Below are positions 35,268 through 43,769 of a stretch of 64,000 nt of DNA, in pieces (within the stretch, counting starts at the first letter, position 1; each line of letters starts with the position of its first letter). The stretch comes from Fimbriimonadales bacterium (GTDB lineage: Bacteria; Armatimonadota; Fimbriimonadia; Fimbriimonadales; GBS-DC): positions 62,001 through 126,000 of the forward strand of contig AP024673.1 in assembly GCA_025998675.1 (NCBI GenBank). Direction: 5' to 3'. The notes beneath the pieces are model-generated. The model was not told the DNA's origin, did not search any database, and saw only the letters and a program-made list of their open reading frames with translations. The position numbers and the translations under genes are program-made.

Positions 35268-35272
35268 CAGTT

Positions 35273-35497
35273 ATACCAATCTGCGCATCAGACTTCGTAA
35301 TTGCTGTGCGCCTACAGTCAGAGCCGCGCGCGTTTTGCCCTCACCCCCAGCCCCTCTCCCGCGCGGCGGGAGAGGGGAGCCGTGCGAGCGGCGCACGATG
35401 CGCTATCCCCCTCTCCCGAACCTTCGGGAGAGGGGGACAAAGGGGGTGAGGGCTGCAAGCGTCGCTGATTTACGAACTATGACGCGCAGATTGGTAT
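35273..35497. mobile_element. MITE-like element M1, copy B, carrying core R1
   Basis: This 225-bp element has the same ATACCAATC...GATTGGTAT ends and R1 core (35337-35453) as copy A at 21776. It begins 5 bases after the stop of the 149-residue gene and lies between that gene and the end of the CRISPR operon. It encodes nothing convincing. Confidence 0.8.
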
Positions 35498-35706
35498 TAA
35501 TTGGAGAAAGCAAGTTTACGCCAGCTGCGCAGTCATAGTTCATAAAGCGATAAGTTATGGAGTGCGAGAGGCGACGCTGAGGCTGGCGATTCAGCACCCC
35601 GAAAGACGCACACGCGAGCGCACACGAATAAAGGAGCTGCTGCAAATTTAATACAACGACAGTTAGTAGGATCGTAACACTCACACTATCCAGATATCAG
35701 ACCCCC
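35498..35706. other. Intergenic stretch after MITE copy B
   Basis: These 209 bases hold no supported gene. Around 35552-35620 the sequence TTATGGAGTGCGAGAGGCG...CAGCACCCCGAAAGACG loosely resembles the R2 repeat core, but is too diverged to call. The right half is AT-rich compared with the rest of the window (TTTAATACAACGACAGTTAG), which is compatible with transferred or degraded DNA at the operon boundary. Confidence 0.5.
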
Positions 35707-36015
35707 TTAGAAGATATTCTTCGCCATCCTTACGCCCCAACCCCACGCGCGCGCTTTGTCTCTCCCTGTCAGCCCGCACTGGGGACTCCATTGTTGCCAG
35801 ACGCGATAGAGTTCGCGATAGTATCTCTGCGTGCGCTTGCTGCGTGGGGGCGGGTTGTTCGCCATCGTCTCGAGATACTTTTTCATCGCCTCTTCGTCGC
35901 AGTCTTTGAACAGGTAGTAGCCGATTGCCTTTTCCGCCTCGTTGAGGTCGATTTCTGCGCGGCGGAGCAGGTTCTCAAGCTTTTTCGCTGCCTCGATAAT
36001 CGCGTCCCAGTTCAC
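35707..36015 (-). CDS. Small helical protein, last gene of the type III CRISPR operon, function unknown
   Basis: This 102-residue protein has a GTG start and AGGAGG. It is entirely helical in appearance and charged (MNWDAIIEAAKKLENLLRR...DKARAWGWGVRMAKNIF). It begins 12 bases after the TIGR03986-like RAMP gene, so it belongs to the operon. I recognise no family. Its size and helicity suggest a second small subunit of the Cas11/Cmr5 kind, or a regulatory partner, but no motif proves either. Confidence 0.6.
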   Translation of the reverse strand: MNWDAIIEAAKKLENLLRRAEIDLNEAEKAIGYYLFKDCDEEAMKKYLETMANNPPPRSKRTQRYYRELYRVWQQWSPQCGLTGRDKARAWGWGVRMAKNIF

Positions 36016-36027
36016 GGCGTCCTCCTG

Positions 36028-37026
36028 TCAGTAGGGGTCGGCAGGGGCGGTCTCATTCAGCCCTGCTTCGTCGAGAATTGACTCAATCTCGCCCAGCGCG
36101 TCGGGTTCTATCAGCGTGTCTGACGCCTCAAACCACTCTCTGAGCGCGTTTTCAAGCGCTGTACCCGTGAGGCGGGGCGGTTGTCCCATTCTGCCCGTGT
36201 TTTTGACGGTGGTTGCGCCGCTGTGCAGGGCGACGGCGTTGAGTATCACGCGCACGCTGCCGAGCCCCACGGGCTTGCCGCCGCCCAGCTTGATGGGGAA
36301 GGGATGCTCCGGGTGCAGTCCCAGCGCGGTGAGCAGCAGCCCCAGCTCGGCGGCAGTGAGGTTCGTGAAATGGATACGCGCTGTCAGCTCCGCGCCCGCT
36401 TTGATGCAGGTGCGGGGGTCGACGCCCTGCGGGTTGCGCGCGTGGTAGTAGAACTTGCGCCCCTTCGCCTGCCGATTGTCGAGATAGCGGGGTGGCAGCC
36501 CGCGCGCGCCCCGCGCGGGCGACCAGAGCAGCGGCGTGCCCAGCAGCACCAGTGAGCCTTTCGGCGCGAGGGCGTCCTCGAACTGCAGATGCCCTTGGTA
36601 GTCCTGTGCGCCGAACAGGCGGCACGCAAGGCACAATCTATCTGCGCTGAGGCAACCACCATACCCTTGCGGGATGTACGGACGATGTTTGCCCTGAGTC
36701 ACGCGGACGCAGGAGCGCGAAATCGCCTCCACGATGCTGCGCACTGCCCCCTTGAGCGAAGAGCCCGGAATGAGGTAGCGTCTGCGGAGCGCGTTCTCTT
36801 CAACGACGCGCCTGGACGCCTGCAGCGCGGCAAGATACTCCTGATTGCCCGCTTTCACAAAGTCGCTGTAGCCCGAACCGACATGCACGGGCGTGAGCGT
36901 CTCGAGGGTCAACTCAAGCACGCCGCTCAGCCGATTCGCTTTCAGGCGATCCTGCCCGACGCCCGCCTCGCGTGCGGGCGGTTTGTTCGGAAACGGTACA
37001 AAATCGTAAGGCTTTTCTCCATTCAT
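36028..37026 (-). CDS. RAMP (Cas7-like) protein of type III CRISPR complex, TIGR03986-like
   Basis: This 332-residue RAMP-superfamily protein has an opening MNGEKPYDFVPFPNKPP, the segment LTLETLTPVHVGSG, the RAMP loop LIPGSSLKGAVRSIVE, a cysteine pair region CLSADRLCLACRLFG, and a glycine-rich loop GGGKPVGLGSVRV. The N-terminus resembles the CRISPR-associated TIGR03986 family as I recall it. Unlike the other RAMPs of this operon, I see no aspartate at the usual target-cleavage position. It probably packs at the end of the crRNA backbone. It lies 2 bases after the Csx19-like gene, with GGAGG before the ATG. Confidence 0.75.
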   Translation of the reverse strand: MNGEKPYDFVPFPNKPPAREAGVGQDRLKANRLSGVLELTLETLTPVHVGSGYSDFVKAGNQEYLAALQASRRVVEENALRRRYLIPGSSLKGAVRSIVEAISRSCVRVTQGKHRPYIPQGYGGCLSADRLCLACRLFGAQDYQGHLQFEDALAPKGSLVLLGTPLLWSPARGARGLPPRYLDNRQAKGRKFYYHARNPQGVDPRTCIKAGAELTARIHFTNLTAAELGLLLTALGLHPEHPFPIKLGGGKPVGLGSVRVILNAVALHSGATTVKNTGRMGQPPRLTGTALENALREWFEASDTLIEPDALGEIESILDEAGLNETAPADPY

Positions 37027-37028
37027 CG

Positions 37029-37544
37029 CTAAAACTCCTCCGTGTCGATGTTGGCGTAGCGACTGTAGCACAGGCGTTTCAGGGAGTCGTAATAGCCGCG
37101 CGTGCGGGCGACGACCTTGCGGGTTGCCTCGCGGCTGGGCGCGAGCGAGACCCCGTAGTCGAACGCGCTGGGGTAAGCGACATCGGCGAGGGCGGTCGTC
37201 TCGCTTCCGGCGCTTTTGGGCGGGTCGCCCAGCAGTAGACGCGTCTCCTCACGGGTCTCATACTCGCCGCAGGAACGCCATTCGTCCGAGGGCGTTAGCG
37301 ATTCTGTGAGCAGCAGTACGACGGGTTTCCCCCCGCGCGCGAGCAGGCGCAGTTCCGCCTGTTCGCAAAACAGGCTCAGCCGCTCCCAGTCTGCATCGGG
37401 CAGGTCGCCTTCCAGACGGTTGGGCAGGTACATCGCCGTCTCACTCCAGCCGTACCACCACGCCTCGCCTGCGAGGTTCAGGCTTCGCCAGAGCGCAAGC
37501 GGGTTCATTTCCGCGCCTGTGTAGCGGTACACCCTACCCTGCAC
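37029..37544 (-). CDS. Csx19-like / TIGR03984-like type III-D associated protein
   Basis: This 171-residue protein starts at GTG after GAGGAGGTG and overlaps the preceding RAMP gene by 11 bases. The visible segments are WWYGWSETAMYLPNRLEG, LSLFCEQAELRLLARGG and a C-terminal RTRGYYDSLKRLCYSRY. The position, size and Trp/Tyr-rich start resemble the Csx19/TIGR03984 family that accompanies type III-D operons. That assignment is from memory and is moderate at best. Its role in the complex is not established. Confidence 0.5.
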   Translation of the reverse strand: MQGRVYRYTGAEMNPLALWRSLNLAGEAWWYGWSETAMYLPNRLEGDLPDADWERLSLFCEQAELRLLARGGKPVVLLLTESLTPSDEWRSCGEYETREETRLLLGDPPKSAGSETTALADVAYPSAFDYGVSLAPSREATRKVVARTRGYYDSLKRLCYSRYANIDTEEF

Positions 37545-38433
37545 GCTGCACCTCCTCGACCCAGCAGGGCGCAGCGGTTTCTAACCATCGGCGAATCTCA
37601 GTGTCGTTATTGCTCTGCGCCTGATAGTAGAGCGAGTCGCGGCGCACGGGCTGGTATCCCTCCAGCGTTAGGGAGTCGCTGTCGGGTAGCGCGTAGCGCT
37701 GGCGTATTTTGTCGGGCGCGAGCGCGCCGACGCCCAGCAGCTGGTTGCCCTGACTGGCGCACTGGCGGAACTCGGCGCGGGTGAACTCGATGCATACGCG
37801 CCCCAGCCCGCGCGACTTGGCGTGCCCCAGCGCGACCAGCCCATCGGCAATGTCCAGTAGCGCCGCGCCCAGCAAGCCCAGCTGCCCCACGGTGAAGTTG
37901 CGCAGCACAATCCGCCCCTCAAACCGTCCGTCGGTGACCACTTCGAGGTCGAACGGTCCCACTGCGACTGCGCCCGTGATGCGGTCGATGGCGACGCCGA
38001 AGCGCGATTCGCTGAGCGGCGCGTGCGGCGGGTACAGGTCGCTCATCTGCACGCGCGAGGCGACGCCTGTGTTGCCAAACAGACGGCAGGCATAGCAGGA
38101 CTCTTGGTAAAGCCGATCTGCACTCTCCTTATCCTCCTTCAGCCCCTTCTGGCGCAGGCAAAACTTTTTCGCCTCGACATAGCACGCGTGCCGCTCGTCG
38201 ACCGTGCGCAGGAGCCGTTCGGCGTGTGCGCGCACGACCCCGCGCAGGCTGGAGCCGGGGATGTAGACCACTTCGTCCACGGCGCCGTCGGGCGTGCGTC
38301 GGCGCGTGCGCACAAACTGCATATCGGGCAACGCGGGGTCGATGCTCGCCTTCTGTCCCGACTTAATCAGCAGCGGCGTCTGGGGCAGAATCGCCACCTC
38401 AAGCGACAGTTCGTTGTAAAGTCGTCCGTGCAT
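37534..38433 (-). CDS. Cas7-like RAMP protein (Csm3-type), third Cas7 subunit
   Basis: This 299-residue protein has the RAMP loop VYIPGSSLRGVVRAHAERLL and the late glycine-rich loop GHAKSRGLGRVCIEF. Before the loop, D37 in LPDMQFVRTRR aligns by eye with the target-RNA-cleaving Asp of Csm3. The insert between Asp and loop is longer than in Csm3. A cysteine cluster (CYACRLFG) follows. It lies 2 bases after the upstream Csm3-like gene and overlaps the next gene by 11 bases. It likely forms part of the crRNA-binding backbone. Confidence 0.83.
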   Translation of the reverse strand: MHGRLYNELSLEVAILPQTPLLIKSGQKASIDPALPDMQFVRTRRRTPDGAVDEVVYIPGSSLRGVVRAHAERLLRTVDERHACYVEAKKFCLRQKGLKEDKESADRLYQESCYACRLFGNTGVASRVQMSDLYPPHAPLSESRFGVAIDRITGAVAVGPFDLEVVTDGRFEGRIVLRNFTVGQLGLLGAALLDIADGLVALGHAKSRGLGRVCIEFTRAEFRQCASQGNQLLGVGALAPDKIRQRYALPDSDSLTLEGYQPVRRDSLYYQAQSNNDTEIRRWLETAAPCWVEEVQRAG

Positions 38434-38435
38434 GG

Positions 38436-39218
38436 TTAGCCTCCCATCTGCTGAAAGAGCTGTTCGAGCCGCGCGTTAATCCATGCGGCGTCGACAGGCG
38501 CGGCTTGCCCCTGCTTCAGGTAGTTCAGCAGGTTCTTTTTGTCTACCCACTCGTAGCGTGCGTTTTCGAGTTTGACAACGCCCAGCCCGCGCCCCTTGAA
38601 GCCGCCGATGCGTATTGCGCCGTTTTCCAGCTCGCGCACGCCCAGCAACAGCAGCCCCAGTTCCACATCGTCGAGGTTCTCGGCGATGATTTCGAGCTTG
38701 AAGCGCACTCCTGCAGGCATCGCCTCGAAGTCGTACTTGTTGGCGACGCTCTCCTTCTCGCGGTCGATGGAGACGCTATCGCGCAGCTCTGGCTCCACGC
38801 GCTCCGTGAGCAGCGGCAGGTCGGTAAAGCGCACGCGCGAGGCGAGCCATGGCGAGCCAAACACGCGCTCGACGCGGCACGACTCTTCGAAAACCTCGCG
38901 CTCGTAGGTATCCCGATTCGCCAGTTGCCGCCTGCGTTCGGGCGGTATTGCCCATTCGCTGGGTTTCACGGGATTCGATGCGCCTTTCCCGCTGCCTGCA
39001 TCTGGCTCGAATGCCCGTACGATGCGCTCCACATGCGCGCGCACCGCGCCGCGCAGGCTGGAGCCCGGAATGAACGGGCGTCCCTGTGAGTCTTTGATGA
39101 CGGGCAGGTCGGTCGCGGTGGGCATCGCGGTCTCCGCGCTCATCCCCACGCGCACGCCTGTCTCTGTAAATAGATCGCCTGTGATGTACAGACGGTTCTC
39201 AAAAGTGTCCCACATCAT
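38436..39218 (-). CDS. csm3: Csm3-like Cas7 backbone RNase, type III complex
   Basis: The closest match to classical Csm3 in this operon, at 260 residues. It contains TDLPVIKDSQGRPFIPGSSLRGAVR, in which D37 corresponds to the catalytic Asp (D33 in Streptococcus thermophilus Csm3) that cuts target RNA every six nucleotides. The C-terminal GGFKGRGLGVVKLE is the glycine-rich loop. It overlaps the small-subunit gene by 4 bases (ATGA). Confidence 0.88.
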   Translation of the reverse strand: MMWDTFENRLYITGDLFTETGVRVGMSAETAMPTATDLPVIKDSQGRPFIPGSSLRGAVRAHVERIVRAFEPDAGSGKGASNPVKPSEWAIPPERRRQLANRDTYEREVFEESCRVERVFGSPWLASRVRFTDLPLLTERVEPELRDSVSIDREKESVANKYDFEAMPAGVRFKLEIIAENLDDVELGLLLLGVRELENGAIRIGGFKGRGLGVVKLENARYEWVDKKNLLNYLKQGQAAPVDAAWINARLEQLFQQMGG

Positions 39219-39604
39219 CTGGCGCTCACCTCCCGAAACTGTGCGGGAATCTGGTCCAGGTATTTCAGCGCAATCAGGGTGCGACGCACGAAGCCGAGAA
39301 AGTTGGTGAGATGCGCGGCGGCATTCTGGGGATATTTCTCGTGCAGATGCTGTGCGTAGTCGTAGATTTGTTTGCCGAACGCGCCGTTTTTGCCCGCTGT
39401 CCGCCAGAACTCTTCGCGCGCCATCTGATAGCGCAGCCAGTTGCAGAACACCGTCACGGAACGCGACTGGTTGATCGCGTCGATGGCGTTGGAGACCTGT
39501 GTGCGACCTGTCGTGTTGGTTGAGTTCGACGGTTGTGAGAAGCAGTCGGCTACAATCTCCTCTGCTTTGCGCACCAGTTCATCAGTGATTTCTTCGCGAT
39601 TCAT
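39215..39604 (-). CDS. Probable Cas11 small subunit (Csm2-like)
   Basis: This 129-residue, mostly helical basic protein begins MNREEITDELVRKAEEIV and contains TGRTQVSNAIDAINQSRSVTVF, which resembles Csm2-like sequences (Thr-Gln-(Leu/Val)-x-Asn...). Small helical subunits form the inner filament of type III complexes that contacts target RNA. The start uses AGGAGGTG, and the gene overlaps csx10 by 4 bases. The family call rests on position, size and this weak motif. Confidence 0.6.
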   Translation of the reverse strand: MNREEITDELVRKAEEIVADCFSQPSNSTNTTGRTQVSNAIDAINQSRSVTVFCNWLRYQMAREEFWRTAGKNGAFGKQIYDYAQHLHEKYPQNAAAHLTNFLGFVRRTLIALKYLDQIPAQFREVSAR

Positions 39605-40788
39605 TGCGCACCTCCTGAGTATTGGGTAATGTCGTTGTCGAGATGATAGCGGCTGCAGGCGACCAGTTGCCCGTAGCCTTCCGCTGTGCGTTCGCCGATG
39701 CTGTGCGTGTTGAGTTGCTGGAGCCACGCCTGCAGAGCGTCCCGATCGTCCTGGGCGTAGGTGTAGGTGAACACGCTGCCGGGCGCGAACGCCTGCTGCA
39801 CAGGTTTGGGCATGCCCCACGCGCCCGACCAGCCGCTCACCTGCACGCGCTCGATGCGGGTCGCTTCGGGCAGAAGACGCACCGAGTCGGGCAGTCCGGG
39901 CAGGTACTCGCGCAGCAGTTCGGGCGAGAGGGTGTGTGCGGGCGCGCCGCTGGCGTCGTGAACCAGCACGGGCGTGCGCGCGAGTAGGGTGAACACGGGC
40001 GCGCCTGCGCGTTTCTCGAACGCGTCCAGGTCTGCCGGCGTTTCGGGAAGCGATTCGTCAGCGAGTTTCAGCACGACCTCGCCGAAGCCGCGCGTGCGCG
40101 CCGAGCCGATTCGCAGTCGCACCGCGCCGTCGCGCCAGCGTAGCGCCTCGAGAATCGTATTGAACGCCCTCTCGCAGGCGTCGTCGGGGAAGACGACCGC
40201 GCCCCGAAAGGCGACAGGCGCGCCCTGAGCGTCTGTGGGATCTATCGCCTCCAGTGTGTAGAGTACGCCTTCCTGCGCCGCCTCCAGTTTTCGGTTCAGT
40301 CCCACCCGCACGAAGGCGCGCGGGGCAGGCGTCGTCGCCTTGCGCCATTCGCCGTTTTTAGGGACGAGCCAGCCCCGCCCGCGCTCCAGACGCGCGCCCG
40401 TTCGGGGGCACTCCATCTCGTACTTCTCATCGCGCAGTAGGGCAAACAGCGTGTCGTAGAGATACTCGTCGCGTTGCTTGTTGAACAGCGCAGTCGCGGG
40501 GGCGGGGATCCAGTCCTGATTGGCGAAAGGCATCAGGAAGCCGAACTGTGCGCCGTCTTTGCCGAAGCAGGTTTCGAACGCCTGTTGGAGCGCGGGGTCG
40601 CCTGCGCCGAGCATGCGTCGGCTGGAGCGATGCATGCCGAGTTGCTCCAGCACGGCTTGCGCAAGCGCGCCGCGCAGCACGCCGCCGGGGATGTAGCGCA
40701 TGCTCTCGCGCACATTGCTGCGCGAGGACATCCACTCGCCGACGGCAATCGGCGACTGCGCCTCCAGTTGCACGGCGATTCGTTTCAT
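39601..40788 (-). CDS. csx10: Csx10 RAMP protein (Cas5-like), type III-D signature
   Basis: This 395-residue protein has the two-RAMP layout of Csx10: N-terminal MRYIPGGVLRGALAQAVL with a following FGFLMPFANQD, a central glycine-rich loop SARTRGFGEVVLK, then a second half with LARTPVLVHDASGAP, VSGWSGAWGMPKP, AFAPGSVFTY and IGERTAEGYGQL. The last motif corresponds to the GIGERR-EGFG hallmark. Csx10 takes the Cas5 position and holds the crRNA 5' handle. It marks the system as type III-D. It overlaps both neighbouring genes by 4 bases. Confidence 0.85.
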   Translation of the reverse strand: MKRIAVQLEAQSPIAVGEWMSSRSNVRESMRYIPGGVLRGALAQAVLEQLGMHRSSRRMLGAGDPALQQAFETCFGKDGAQFGFLMPFANQDWIPAPATALFNKQRDEYLYDTLFALLRDEKYEMECPRTGARLERGRGWLVPKNGEWRKATTPAPRAFVRVGLNRKLEAAQEGVLYTLEAIDPTDAQGAPVAFRGAVVFPDDACERAFNTILEALRWRDGAVRLRIGSARTRGFGEVVLKLADESLPETPADLDAFEKRAGAPVFTLLARTPVLVHDASGAPAHTLSPELLREYLPGLPDSVRLLPEATRIERVQVSGWSGAWGMPKPVQQAFAPGSVFTYTYAQDDRDALQAWLQQLNTHSIGERTAEGYGQLVACSRYHLDNDITQYSGGAQ

Positions 40789-41507
40789 GGGCGCGCCTCC
40801 TGCAGCATGGTCAGCATGTCGTCAGGGGGTACTGGTTGCCATGCGCCGTTTTTGCGCAGGTGGAGCGTCTGCACGCAGACTGTGGCGCGCCCCAGCCCGC
40901 GCGCTTTTTGCCCGCCGAAGTGGGTGATGAGCTTCAGCGCGGCAATCAGGCGGGCAATCTCCTGCTCGGTCGCCCAGCCGCGAATCGCGCCTGTGTAGCG
41001 ATTGACCTGCTGGTCGGTACAAGGATTCTCGTGATATTGGTCAGACTTGCCGCTAATCGTGCCTGTGTTGTGATTGACCTGCTGGGGCGCCGCCTCATAG
41101 AAGAAGAGTCGTCCCTCCTCGACGGTATTCAGTTTCCGATTGACGCCCACGCCGATGCGCGTGGTGGGTTCGGCGGCTTGGGCGGGCGCGAGATCAGTGA
41201 ACTCCACACGCCCCTGTTGGACGGGCGCGCCGAACAGCGCGCAGGCGAGGCAGAGGTCGTCTGGGTCGTTGCACATCGTGGCGGGGTTGGGCGGCTTGCA
41301 GCCCTTGAGGTCATACCCCAGCGCAGAGAGCAGTCGCTCGTAGTGGGCGCGTGTGCGCCCTTTGAACGAGGTAGACGGTATCAGCGGACGCCCGCGCACA
41401 TCCCGCTCGATACAGCGGTCGATCAACGCCACTGAGCGCCCCACACCCGAAATGTGCAGGTCGCTCTGCAAAACAACTGCCACTTCCAGTTCAAACGGAT
41501 AGAGCAT
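40785..41507 (-). CDS. Cas7-like RAMP protein with internal duplication, type III complex
   Basis: This 240-residue protein has RAMP loop LIPSTSFKGRTRAHYERLL, a cysteine cluster (CKPPNPATMC...CLACALFG) and glycine-rich loop GQKARGLGRATV. D30 in ALIDRCIERD aligns by eye with the Csm3 cleavage Asp. Near residues 140-175 a segment of the form QQVN-x-x-TG-x-I-x-G occurs twice, 24 residues apart. In DNA, 31 bases at 40983 and 41055 are nearly identical, so this is a recent in-frame tandem duplication. It follows cas10 by 9 bases. Confidence 0.82.
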   Translation of the reverse strand: MLYPFELEVAVVLQSDLHISGVGRSVALIDRCIERDVRGRPLIPSTSFKGRTRAHYERLLSALGYDLKGCKPPNPATMCNDPDDLCLACALFGAPVQQGRVEFTDLAPAQAAEPTTRIGVGVNRKLNTVEEGRLFFYEAAPQQVNHNTGTISGKSDQYHENPCTDQQVNRYTGAIRGWATEQEIARLIAALKLITHFGGQKARGLGRATVCVQTLHLRKNGAWQPVPPDDMLTMLQEARP

Positions 41508-41516
41508 CCCAGCCTC

Positions 41517-43769
41517 CTAACGCAAACTCTTGGTGATTTCCAGCAGGTCCAGAATCGGCGCGAAGTAGTTGTGTTCAGGCTTGGCACTGTCCACAGTGAT
41601 ACGGGGGAGACGCTGAATGGGAAACAGTTGCGCAGTTGCACCCTGCCCATTCGACGCGCGGAGCTTGAGCAGGTTATCGAAGAACGCGGCGCGGTCTTCC
41701 GCGTTCTGTGCGCGCGCCTGCTGGTAGGCGAAGTGCAGCAGCGCGGCGGAGAGCGGCTGGCGCACGAACGGCTCCGCGAGGCGTTGCAGGCTGCCCAGCT
41801 GATTGGTATCGATAATCTGCTGAGCGCACTGCAGGAAAGCGTCCAGCTCCGCAGCGGTCATCGGCTGCATGGTGAGGTAGACGGGGACGCTCCCTGACGC
41901 GTCTTTGCCCGCGCGCGCCTCGCGTCGATAGTTGCAACGCAGGTGGTCGTTGTAGTCGCCTGGAATCTGGTCGGCGTTGGTGGTGAACAGGAAGGCAATT
42001 GCGCCGCGTTTGTGTTGGGGCACGCCGCGCTTGGCGAATTTGAGCAGCTGGCTCTCGGTGAACTCTACCACGCGGTACACGGGCGCCTTCTCGTCGCTAA
42101 TCAGGCAGCCGACGCCGAAGCAGATGGGTGTGTCGCCGACGATACACTGATTGCTGTCGCCTTTTTCGAACTCCAGATCGGTCAGGCGCACGAACTGTTC
42201 GCAGAACCGCAGCGCCAGACGGCTCCATGTGAACAGGCTAAAGTCGTCGCCGCCAATCACCAGCGCCTCGAAGGGCATGCGCTGGAGCGTCGTGTTCTCG
42301 GCGAGCGCAGTCTCTATGCTGCGGCTGACGGCGAGCGCGACGGCGGCGCGGGTGACCAGCTCCGCGCGGCGCGTCCACTGCAGGCTCAGCGCCAGCGAGG
42401 TGAGGTTTTTCGTAATCCGTCCGAAGTTGCTCCCGTCGCCGTAGATAAAAGCAACCTGCTTTTTCTGCTCGGATTCGCCCGTTTCGGGAACCAGCTCGTT
42501 GAGACCGCCCAAGAAAGCTCTTGTTGGGTGCTTGAGCAGGCTCTGCCAGCCGACGACTCCCGCATCGTGCAAGAGTTTTTCACCTGCTTTGCGTCGCTCG
42601 TCAGCGTCGCCCTTTTCGCGCTTGATAATGCACACAGGGCAAATGGACAGCAACTCCCCATCGGGCGTGCGCTGGAGCGTCGTCGCTGCGCGCCTGCGGC
42701 AAAACGCGCACCGAGCTTCAAACGGCAGGCACTCCCACACGGGCAGCTCCGCCTGGTAGCGATCGGCGTCAAGTGCCGATAGGAACGCGCGCATCGAGTC
42801 GCTGTATTTATCCAGCATCTGATGTAGCGCGACCTCGTGCGCGGCGGCGGCGCAGAACGCGCTCAGGGTCTTCTCGTAAAACCTGCGCTTGAGCTGGTTC
42901 ACCCAGTCGCCCGCGTCGGGCGCAAGGAAAATCAGCGTGGAAGCGACCTGCTGGAGCACGCACTCGCGCCCCAGCTGATCGGCGACTTCACGAGCCGCCT
43001 TCTCAACTACCTCGTCCAGCAGGATCGACGCGCCGCGAATTTCGGGCAAGCCGGGCGTCTCGAACACATACTGCTTGATGCGCTGCGCCGCCAACCCGAC
43101 GATGCAGAGTGGATACGCATCAGGCAACAAGTCGGCTCGCCCGCCATGCACGGCGTCAATCAGGGTCTTGTGGTCGCGCAGGGCTTCTGGAGGTTCAGAC
43201 GCCTCGCCTTTCAGATATTGTGCCAGCGCGAGTGCGAGGGGCGCGCCCTGCAGTAGGTCGCGCACTTCGGGCAGGTCAATCAATTCGTGCGTTAGCGCGC
43301 CCAGCCGCGCCTGATGCACGGTTTCCTCGTCCGCGCCTGCGCGGCGCAGGCACACATTCATCAGCGCCGCGGTAATCAGGTGATGGTCGGCGGCGAGCAG
43401 GGCAGGCGAGTCGGCTTCGGACGGCTGCGTCTCGGCGGGCAGAATCGGCGGATAGCGCATCTCGTCCAGAAAATGCGTGCGCCACTGGGCGGCGTTAGGG
43501 ACACCAAGCGCGCCATTCGCAGAGGCGTAGGCGAGCGTTGCGCCTGTCGTGAACCCCGCCTGCACGCCCTCGCGTCCGAAGCGCAGCGGGAAGACGCGCT
43601 CGTAGTAGGCATGCCAGAACTCGGCGATAGCATTCGCCTGATCTTTAGGCGTCTTACCCTCGCGCGCGCAGGCGGCAATCTCGTGTGCGATTGCCGCGCG
43701 AATCGCGGCGCGCTGCTCTTCGCTAAGCCGATACTCGCTTCCCGTAAACCGATCGAGCCAGGTCGTCAT
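41517..43769 (-). CDS. cas10: Cas10 large subunit with intact GGDD cyclase motif
   Basis: This 750-residue large subunit of a type III complex has a first palm domain region near QRIKQYVFETPGLPEIRGASILLDEV (230-254), a zinc finger (C354, C357, C377, C380) and a second palm with FIYGDGSNFG (441-450) and the cyclase motif GGDDF (506-510). Target binding should therefore activate cyclic oligoadenylate synthesis. No canonical His-Asp dyad of the HD nuclease is seen. The best candidate, THELIDLP (160-167), has His-Glu, so DNase activity is probably lost. GGGAGG precedes the chosen ATG. An upstream in-frame extension is non-conserved. It is the first gene of a nine-gene leftward operon. Confidence 0.9.
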   Translation of the reverse strand: MTTWLDRFTGSEYRLSEEQRAAIRAAIAHEIAACAREGKTPKDQANAIAEFWHAYYERVFPLRFGREGVQAGFTTGATLAYASANGALGVPNAAQWRTHFLDEMRYPPILPAETQPSEADSPALLAADHHLITAALMNVCLRRAGADEETVHQARLGALTHELIDLPEVRDLLQGAPLALALAQYLKGEASEPPEALRDHKTLIDAVHGGRADLLPDAYPLCIVGLAAQRIKQYVFETPGLPEIRGASILLDEVVEKAAREVADQLGRECVLQQVASTLIFLAPDAGDWVNQLKRRFYEKTLSAFCAAAAHEVALHQMLDKYSDSMRAFLSALDADRYQAELPVWECLPFEARCAFCRRRAATTLQRTPDGELLSICPVCIIKREKGDADERRKAGEKLLHDAGVVGWQSLLKHPTRAFLGGLNELVPETGESEQKKQVAFIYGDGSNFGRITKNLTSLALSLQWTRRAELVTRAAVALAVSRSIETALAENTTLQRMPFEALVIGGDDFSLFTWSRLALRFCEQFVRLTDLEFEKGDSNQCIVGDTPICFGVGCLISDEKAPVYRVVEFTESQLLKFAKRGVPQHKRGAIAFLFTTNADQIPGDYNDHLRCNYRREARAGKDASGSVPVYLTMQPMTAAELDAFLQCAQQIIDTNQLGSLQRLAEPFVRQPLSAALLHFAYQQARAQNAEDRAAFFDNLLKLRASNGQGATAQLFPIQRLPRITVDSAKPEHNYFAPILDLLEITKSLR

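Follow-up and report, generated by a model that had tools for sequence, protein, structure and literature searches.

Among described type III CRISPR systems, the multi-subunit III-D1 complex (PDB 8bmw) most resembles the locus studied here, both having separate cas10, several cas7s, csx10, a small subunit gene and csx19, as well as a Cas10 with a GGDD motif and no detectable HD domain. The HD domain is predicted to be absent from most III-D Cas10s (PMC11026444), and a Cas6 provided in trans is apparently used by most type III loci (PMC12669027). In this work, we analysed a window of 64,000 nucleotides (C1:62001-126000) belonging to a single 2,987,958-base contig (98.85 % complete) of a Fimbriimonadales bacterium. 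We conclude, with a probability of roughly 0.85, that a III-D (III-D1-like) complex encoded in this window relies on components located at other sites of the same chromosome.

Nine leftward genes were found at positions 35707-43769, all open and intact in the ORF check of the window, and joined by overlaps of 4-11 bp or gaps of 2-12 bp:

41517..43769, minus strand: cas10 (III-D large subunit), 750 aa; PADLOC Cas10 E=4.4e-36
40785..41507, minus strand: cas7 (Csm3-like) with conserved D30; Csm3 E=1.5e-20, RAMPs above cut-off
39601..40788, minus strand: csx10 (III-D cas5); Cas5_IIId E=1.2e-38
39215..39604, minus strand: cas11 (Csm2-like small subunit), 129 aa when read from the likely ATG start; Csm2 E=7e-17, scored on the longer ORF
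38436..39218, minus strand: cas7 (Csx7) with conserved D37; TIGR02581 164 bits, over the cut-off of 108
37534..38433, minus strand: cas7 (Csx7-like); Csm3 E=3.4e-38, TIGR02581 95.6 bits, under the cut-off of 108
37029..37544, minus strand: csx19; Csx19 E=2.8e-14
36028..37026, minus strand: TIGR03986-like cas7; TIGR03986 E=2.5e-41, 142.8 bits against a cut-off of 161
35707..36015, minus strand: csx21 (associated family, 102 residues); Csx21 PDLC01524 E=1.8e-40, orthologues in relatives

The ORF of the TIGR03986-like cas7 opens at 37071, and its likely ATG start was set from the alignment, in which the relatives begin MNGEKPYDF. The csx10 product also matched TIGR02674 (E=3.5e-37, 128.5 bits, under the curated cut-off of 177.3). 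When compared with PDB sequences, the operon proteins matched III-D chains (8bmw and 8s9t among the nearest), Cas7-11 and Csm3, the best match of the cas10 product being the III-D Cas10 chain 8bmw_K (E=1.8e-05). Chance can be excluded for this operon because strong profile matches are combined with orthologues in several relatives. The first-pass annotation had described nine leftward genes with overlaps or small gaps, III-D-like in content; ORFs, profile matches and orthologues confirmed the former, and III-D profile matches, including Cas5_IIId and Csx19, the latter. The 102-residue protein that it had left as unknown belongs to the known associated family Csx21.

With III-D profile matches for all its core genes, the operon is predicted to encode a type III-D (III-D1-like) effector complex, and the profile searches that had been proposed as a check did place it in III-D. 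A csx10-type cas5, a cas10 without HD match and csx19 were all found. Membership in III-E, III-D2 or III-Dv was rejected, as the Cas7s, Csx10 and Cas11 are all encoded by separate genes, with no fusions.

Alignment of seven Cas10 sequences revealed an invariant GGDD (506-509) and four invariant cysteines (354, 357, 377 and 380), likely to form a zinc finger, and searches of Cas10 with Pfam HD models gave no match; the GGDD motif and the missing HD domain had both been correctly read at first pass. Such a Cas10, with GGDD and without HD, is predicted to be cyclase-competent. That the invariant H129 and H161-E162, located in a helical region, are a relic of an HD domain is only a guess. The AlphaFold model of Cas10 was too poor to interpret (mean pLDDT 41.1). 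Regarding the Cas7s, the presumed catalytic Asp is invariant in the first two (D30, D37) when aligned with relatives, and the third keeps it in all aligned sequences but that of one relative, which carries a local deletion.

Related Cas10s were present in 10 of the 101 genomes searched (this one included), all from the same genus or family. Gene order was alike in the relatives whose contigs were long enough, and most operon proteins were 46-81 % identical; the III-D operon is a stable module of this lineage. In one relative (G004), two reading frames are needed to cover cas10, and likewise csx10 (L057:10045-14254, plus strand), through either decay or assembly error.

Several modules are dispersed along the chromosome, the III-D operon being one of them, which corrects an impression limited to the window. 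No CRISPR array was found inside the 64 kb, as first stated, or within 20 kb to either side, but the chromosome holds six, whose loci comprise 122 repeats of one sequence; the nearest starts at C1:150360, which puts it 24 kb past the window edge and at a distance of about 45 kb from cas10. The 37-nt repeat (GTAGCATTCACCCCCAAGGGTGGGTGCTAATTGAAAC) occurs 120 times genome-wide when up to 3 mismatches are allowed; a reversed-pattern control gave 0. All six arrays are preceded by one conserved leader of about 300 bp, and together they carry 115 spacers, of which 114 are unique, with a mean length of 41 nt. Sequence overlaps between some spacers of the 150k array and some of the 2711k array suggest that different arrays sampled related targets; two sequences common to spacers of different arrays had no match in 2.9 million viral contigs, so that no protospacer was identified. 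Similarly, the absence of cas1 and cas2 stands for the window but not for the chromosome, where cas1 lies at C1:737942, followed by a 98-aa cas2, with an array beginning beside them. Best matches of both were of I-C type. At about 2 kb from another array (2397k), matches to the PsyrT and PsyrA models point to a likely toxin-antitoxin pair of the PsyrTA type (L051:3928-6893, i.e. C1:2391927-2394892).

A second complex, a III-B operon (cmr1-6), was found at C1:1201532-1207867. Its Cmr2 (L087:1989-3644, minus strand) is short (551 aa) and keeps a palm-2 domain and a GGDD motif; neither cas6 nor an effector gene adjoins this operon either. A CARF effector, indeed missing from the window, is encoded twice on the chromosome, by full-length CARF-HEPN csx1 genes at C1:1767993-1769144 and C1:2481908-2483122 (383 and 404 aa), both products having an intact R-x4-H motif. 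No cas neighbours are evident for either, and homologues directly adjoin cmr6 in two relatives (G011 and G010). These Csx1 proteins may respond to the III-D Cas10, although their genes are unlinked here and, in relatives, linked to III-B and not to III-D.

The genes of the III-D complex, the six arrays with their common leader, cas1-cas2, the III-B complex and the two Csx1 genes can be read directly in the DNA, and from them we infer how the system would operate. Pre-crRNA of the six arrays would be cleaved where the repeat hairpin ends on its 3' side, leaving an 8-nt AUUGAAAC handle, and III-D (and III-B) complexes would take up the resulting crRNAs. Target RNA would then be cut by Cas7 subunits that keep the conserved Asp, the GGDD Cas10 would make a cyclic-oligoadenylate (or similar) messenger, and the orphan Csx1 RNases would respond to it. 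The dispersed modules would share arrays and probably signals too. Against this reading stand the lack of any Cas6 or I-C Cas5 match in the genome, the unlinked position of the Csx1 genes and the failure to identify a protospacer. The first-pass view that both crRNAs and effectors have to be borrowed is thus upheld, their source being the rest of the same chromosome; its term stand-alone is wrong or overstated, given the arrays, cas1-cas2 and two Csx1 found there. Its main oddity dissolves because it is usual for type III systems to draw on parts in trans (PMC12669027), and, an HD-less Cas10 being predicted for most III-D systems (PMC11026444), an action different from classical type III need not be invoked.

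The processing of crRNA deserves separate consideration. A search of the rest of the genome, recommended at first pass, recovered arrays and Csx1 but no cas6: the Cas6 models PF01881, PF10040 and PF19308 had no match genome-wide, so that the absence noted for the window holds for the genome as far as these three models tell, and a divergent Cas6 could escape them. In 14 control genomes, the same models matched in 5, 2 and 3 cases, respectively, none over the cut-off for PF19308. Near the arrays, cas6 was absent among the 25 of 79 PADLOC families listed for 73 ORFs, and the matches in this list were to cas1 and to PsyrT/PsyrA/DpdF-type models. The I-C Cas5 model PF09704 likewise gave no match in this genome, whereas relatives do have I-C loci, whose Cas5 would be the enzyme to process their repeats.

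When folded, the repeat forms a 12-bp hairpin whose end coincides with the beginning of the 8-nt AUUGAAAC tag. Published handles measure 8 nt in type III, as against 11 nt with I-C Cas5d (PMC5965380), so that this geometry is as expected for a type III handle. The arrays resemble the I-C loci of relatives (G008, G010 and G001) in repeat length (37 nt), in repeat ends (GTWGCA...ATTGAAAC), in leader motifs and in Cas1c/Cas2c-type adaptation proteins. They differ in that Cas1 is here only 52-54 % identical, I-C Cas5 has no match, and the I-C repeats of two relatives form a 9-bp hairpin followed by 11 nt, against 12 bp and 8 nt here. Presumably, some nuclease reads the repeat; it may be a Cas6 of divergent sequence, an RNase of the host or the effector complex. 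In the Cas6-less III-B system (III-Bv) of Synechocystis, likewise a type III without its own Cas6, the host nuclease RNase E has been reported to mature crRNA. A stronger version, which we hold only tentatively and think rather unlikely, is that the genome is truly devoid of Cas6 and I-C Cas5 and keeps six arrays with an 8-nt type III handle, as against the 11-nt I-C handle of relatives, with crRNA maturation falling to a non-canonical nuclease, which might be a host RNase or the III-D complex. How crRNAs are made from the 115 spacers for both type III complexes without a recognisable Cas6 or I-C Cas5 is the loose end of this analysis.

Relatives also differ from this genome in the slot following csx21, for which we recorded the following features:

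35268..35706, no strand: intergenic slot, empty here; in relatives, HEPN-like and/or membrane SAVED gene
L053:2354-3625, minus strand: HEPN-like gene of a relative
L054:143-1426, minus strand: HEPN-like gene of a relative
L057:18191-19486, plus strand: HEPN-like gene of a relative
L058:1177-2436, minus strand: HEPN-like gene of a relative
L058:156-1190, minus strand: membrane SAVED gene beside III-D in a relative
L088:2583-3404, plus strand: membrane SAVED gene beside III-D in a relative
L092:5180-6226, plus strand: membrane SAVED gene of G007, beside the same GNAT neighbour

In four relatives, a HEPN-like gene of about 420 aa directly follows csx21, with pairwise identities of only 14-22 %, the neighbouring operon being far more conserved. 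The Arg and His of an R-x4-6-H motif are nevertheless invariant in the four-sequence alignment, and on this motif alone the protein may be an RNase. It had no PADLOC or Pfam match above cut-off (weak HEPN Pfam matches below cut-off in two of the four), and its AlphaFold model was too poor to interpret (mean pLDDT 47.8). A membrane SAVED gene lies downstream of the HEPN-like slot in two genomes (L058 and L088); G007 keeps its SAVED gene yet shows no match to the III-D cas10 of this genome. G004 has a broken SAVED gene, and G010 a truncated HEPN-like gene. In the latter genome, a CorA-like protein (PADLOC CorA E=2.1e-26; L055:2882-4306, minus strand) is encoded about 3.6 kb past the III-D operon. 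The position after csx21 looks like a rapidly changing effector position, and the HEPN-like gene, fast-diverging and unannotated in a fixed III-D slot, is a candidate new effector or partner.

Neither the HEPN-like nor the SAVED gene of relatives was found in the present genome, and a remnant effector in 35268-35706 was rejected, as tblastn gave no credible match to the relatives' proteins. One could suppose, from the absence of both genes and from the linkage of Csx1 to III-B in relatives, that the III-D operon is losing function, its dedicated effectors being gone and the arrays now mainly serving III-B. We judge this improbable, as none of the nine reading frames is interrupted, their junctions are tight and the catalytic motifs (GGDD, Cas7 Asp) are kept; moreover, the HEPN-like and SAVED genes are decaying in other relatives too, so that their loss need not imply a loss of III-D function. 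A new stand-alone type III variant acting without arrays, effectors or cyclic-nucleotide signalling, suggested only by the compact layout and by partners missing inside the window, is scarcely credible, given that matches to III-D or type III-associated families were obtained for every gene, that the cyclase motif is kept and that arrays and Csx1 occur in the same genome.

A functional III-D complex supplied from the same chromosome is thus the reading we retain, and compared with known systems it is a fairly standard one, ordinary but for the question of crRNA processing, with its partners encoded in trans. With respect to III-D1, the operon has an additional csx21 and no adjacent array, cas6, cas1-cas2 or effector; the array, cas1-cas2 and effector lie elsewhere on the chromosome, and cas6 was not found. 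It shares Csx10-, Csx19- and Cas7-type subunits with the III-Dv system of Synechocystis (PDB 8s9t; PMC11026444), whose Cas10 is also predicted to be without HD nuclease activity (PMC11026444), but it has no gene fusions, and the Synechocystis operon is adjoined by cas6-2a, adaptation genes, an array, csm6 and csx1, which is not the case here. Finally, several subunits show weak Cas7-domain similarity to the III-E Cas7-11 (gRAMP), from which the present system differs in having separate genes and a Cas10 instead of a single-protein effector.
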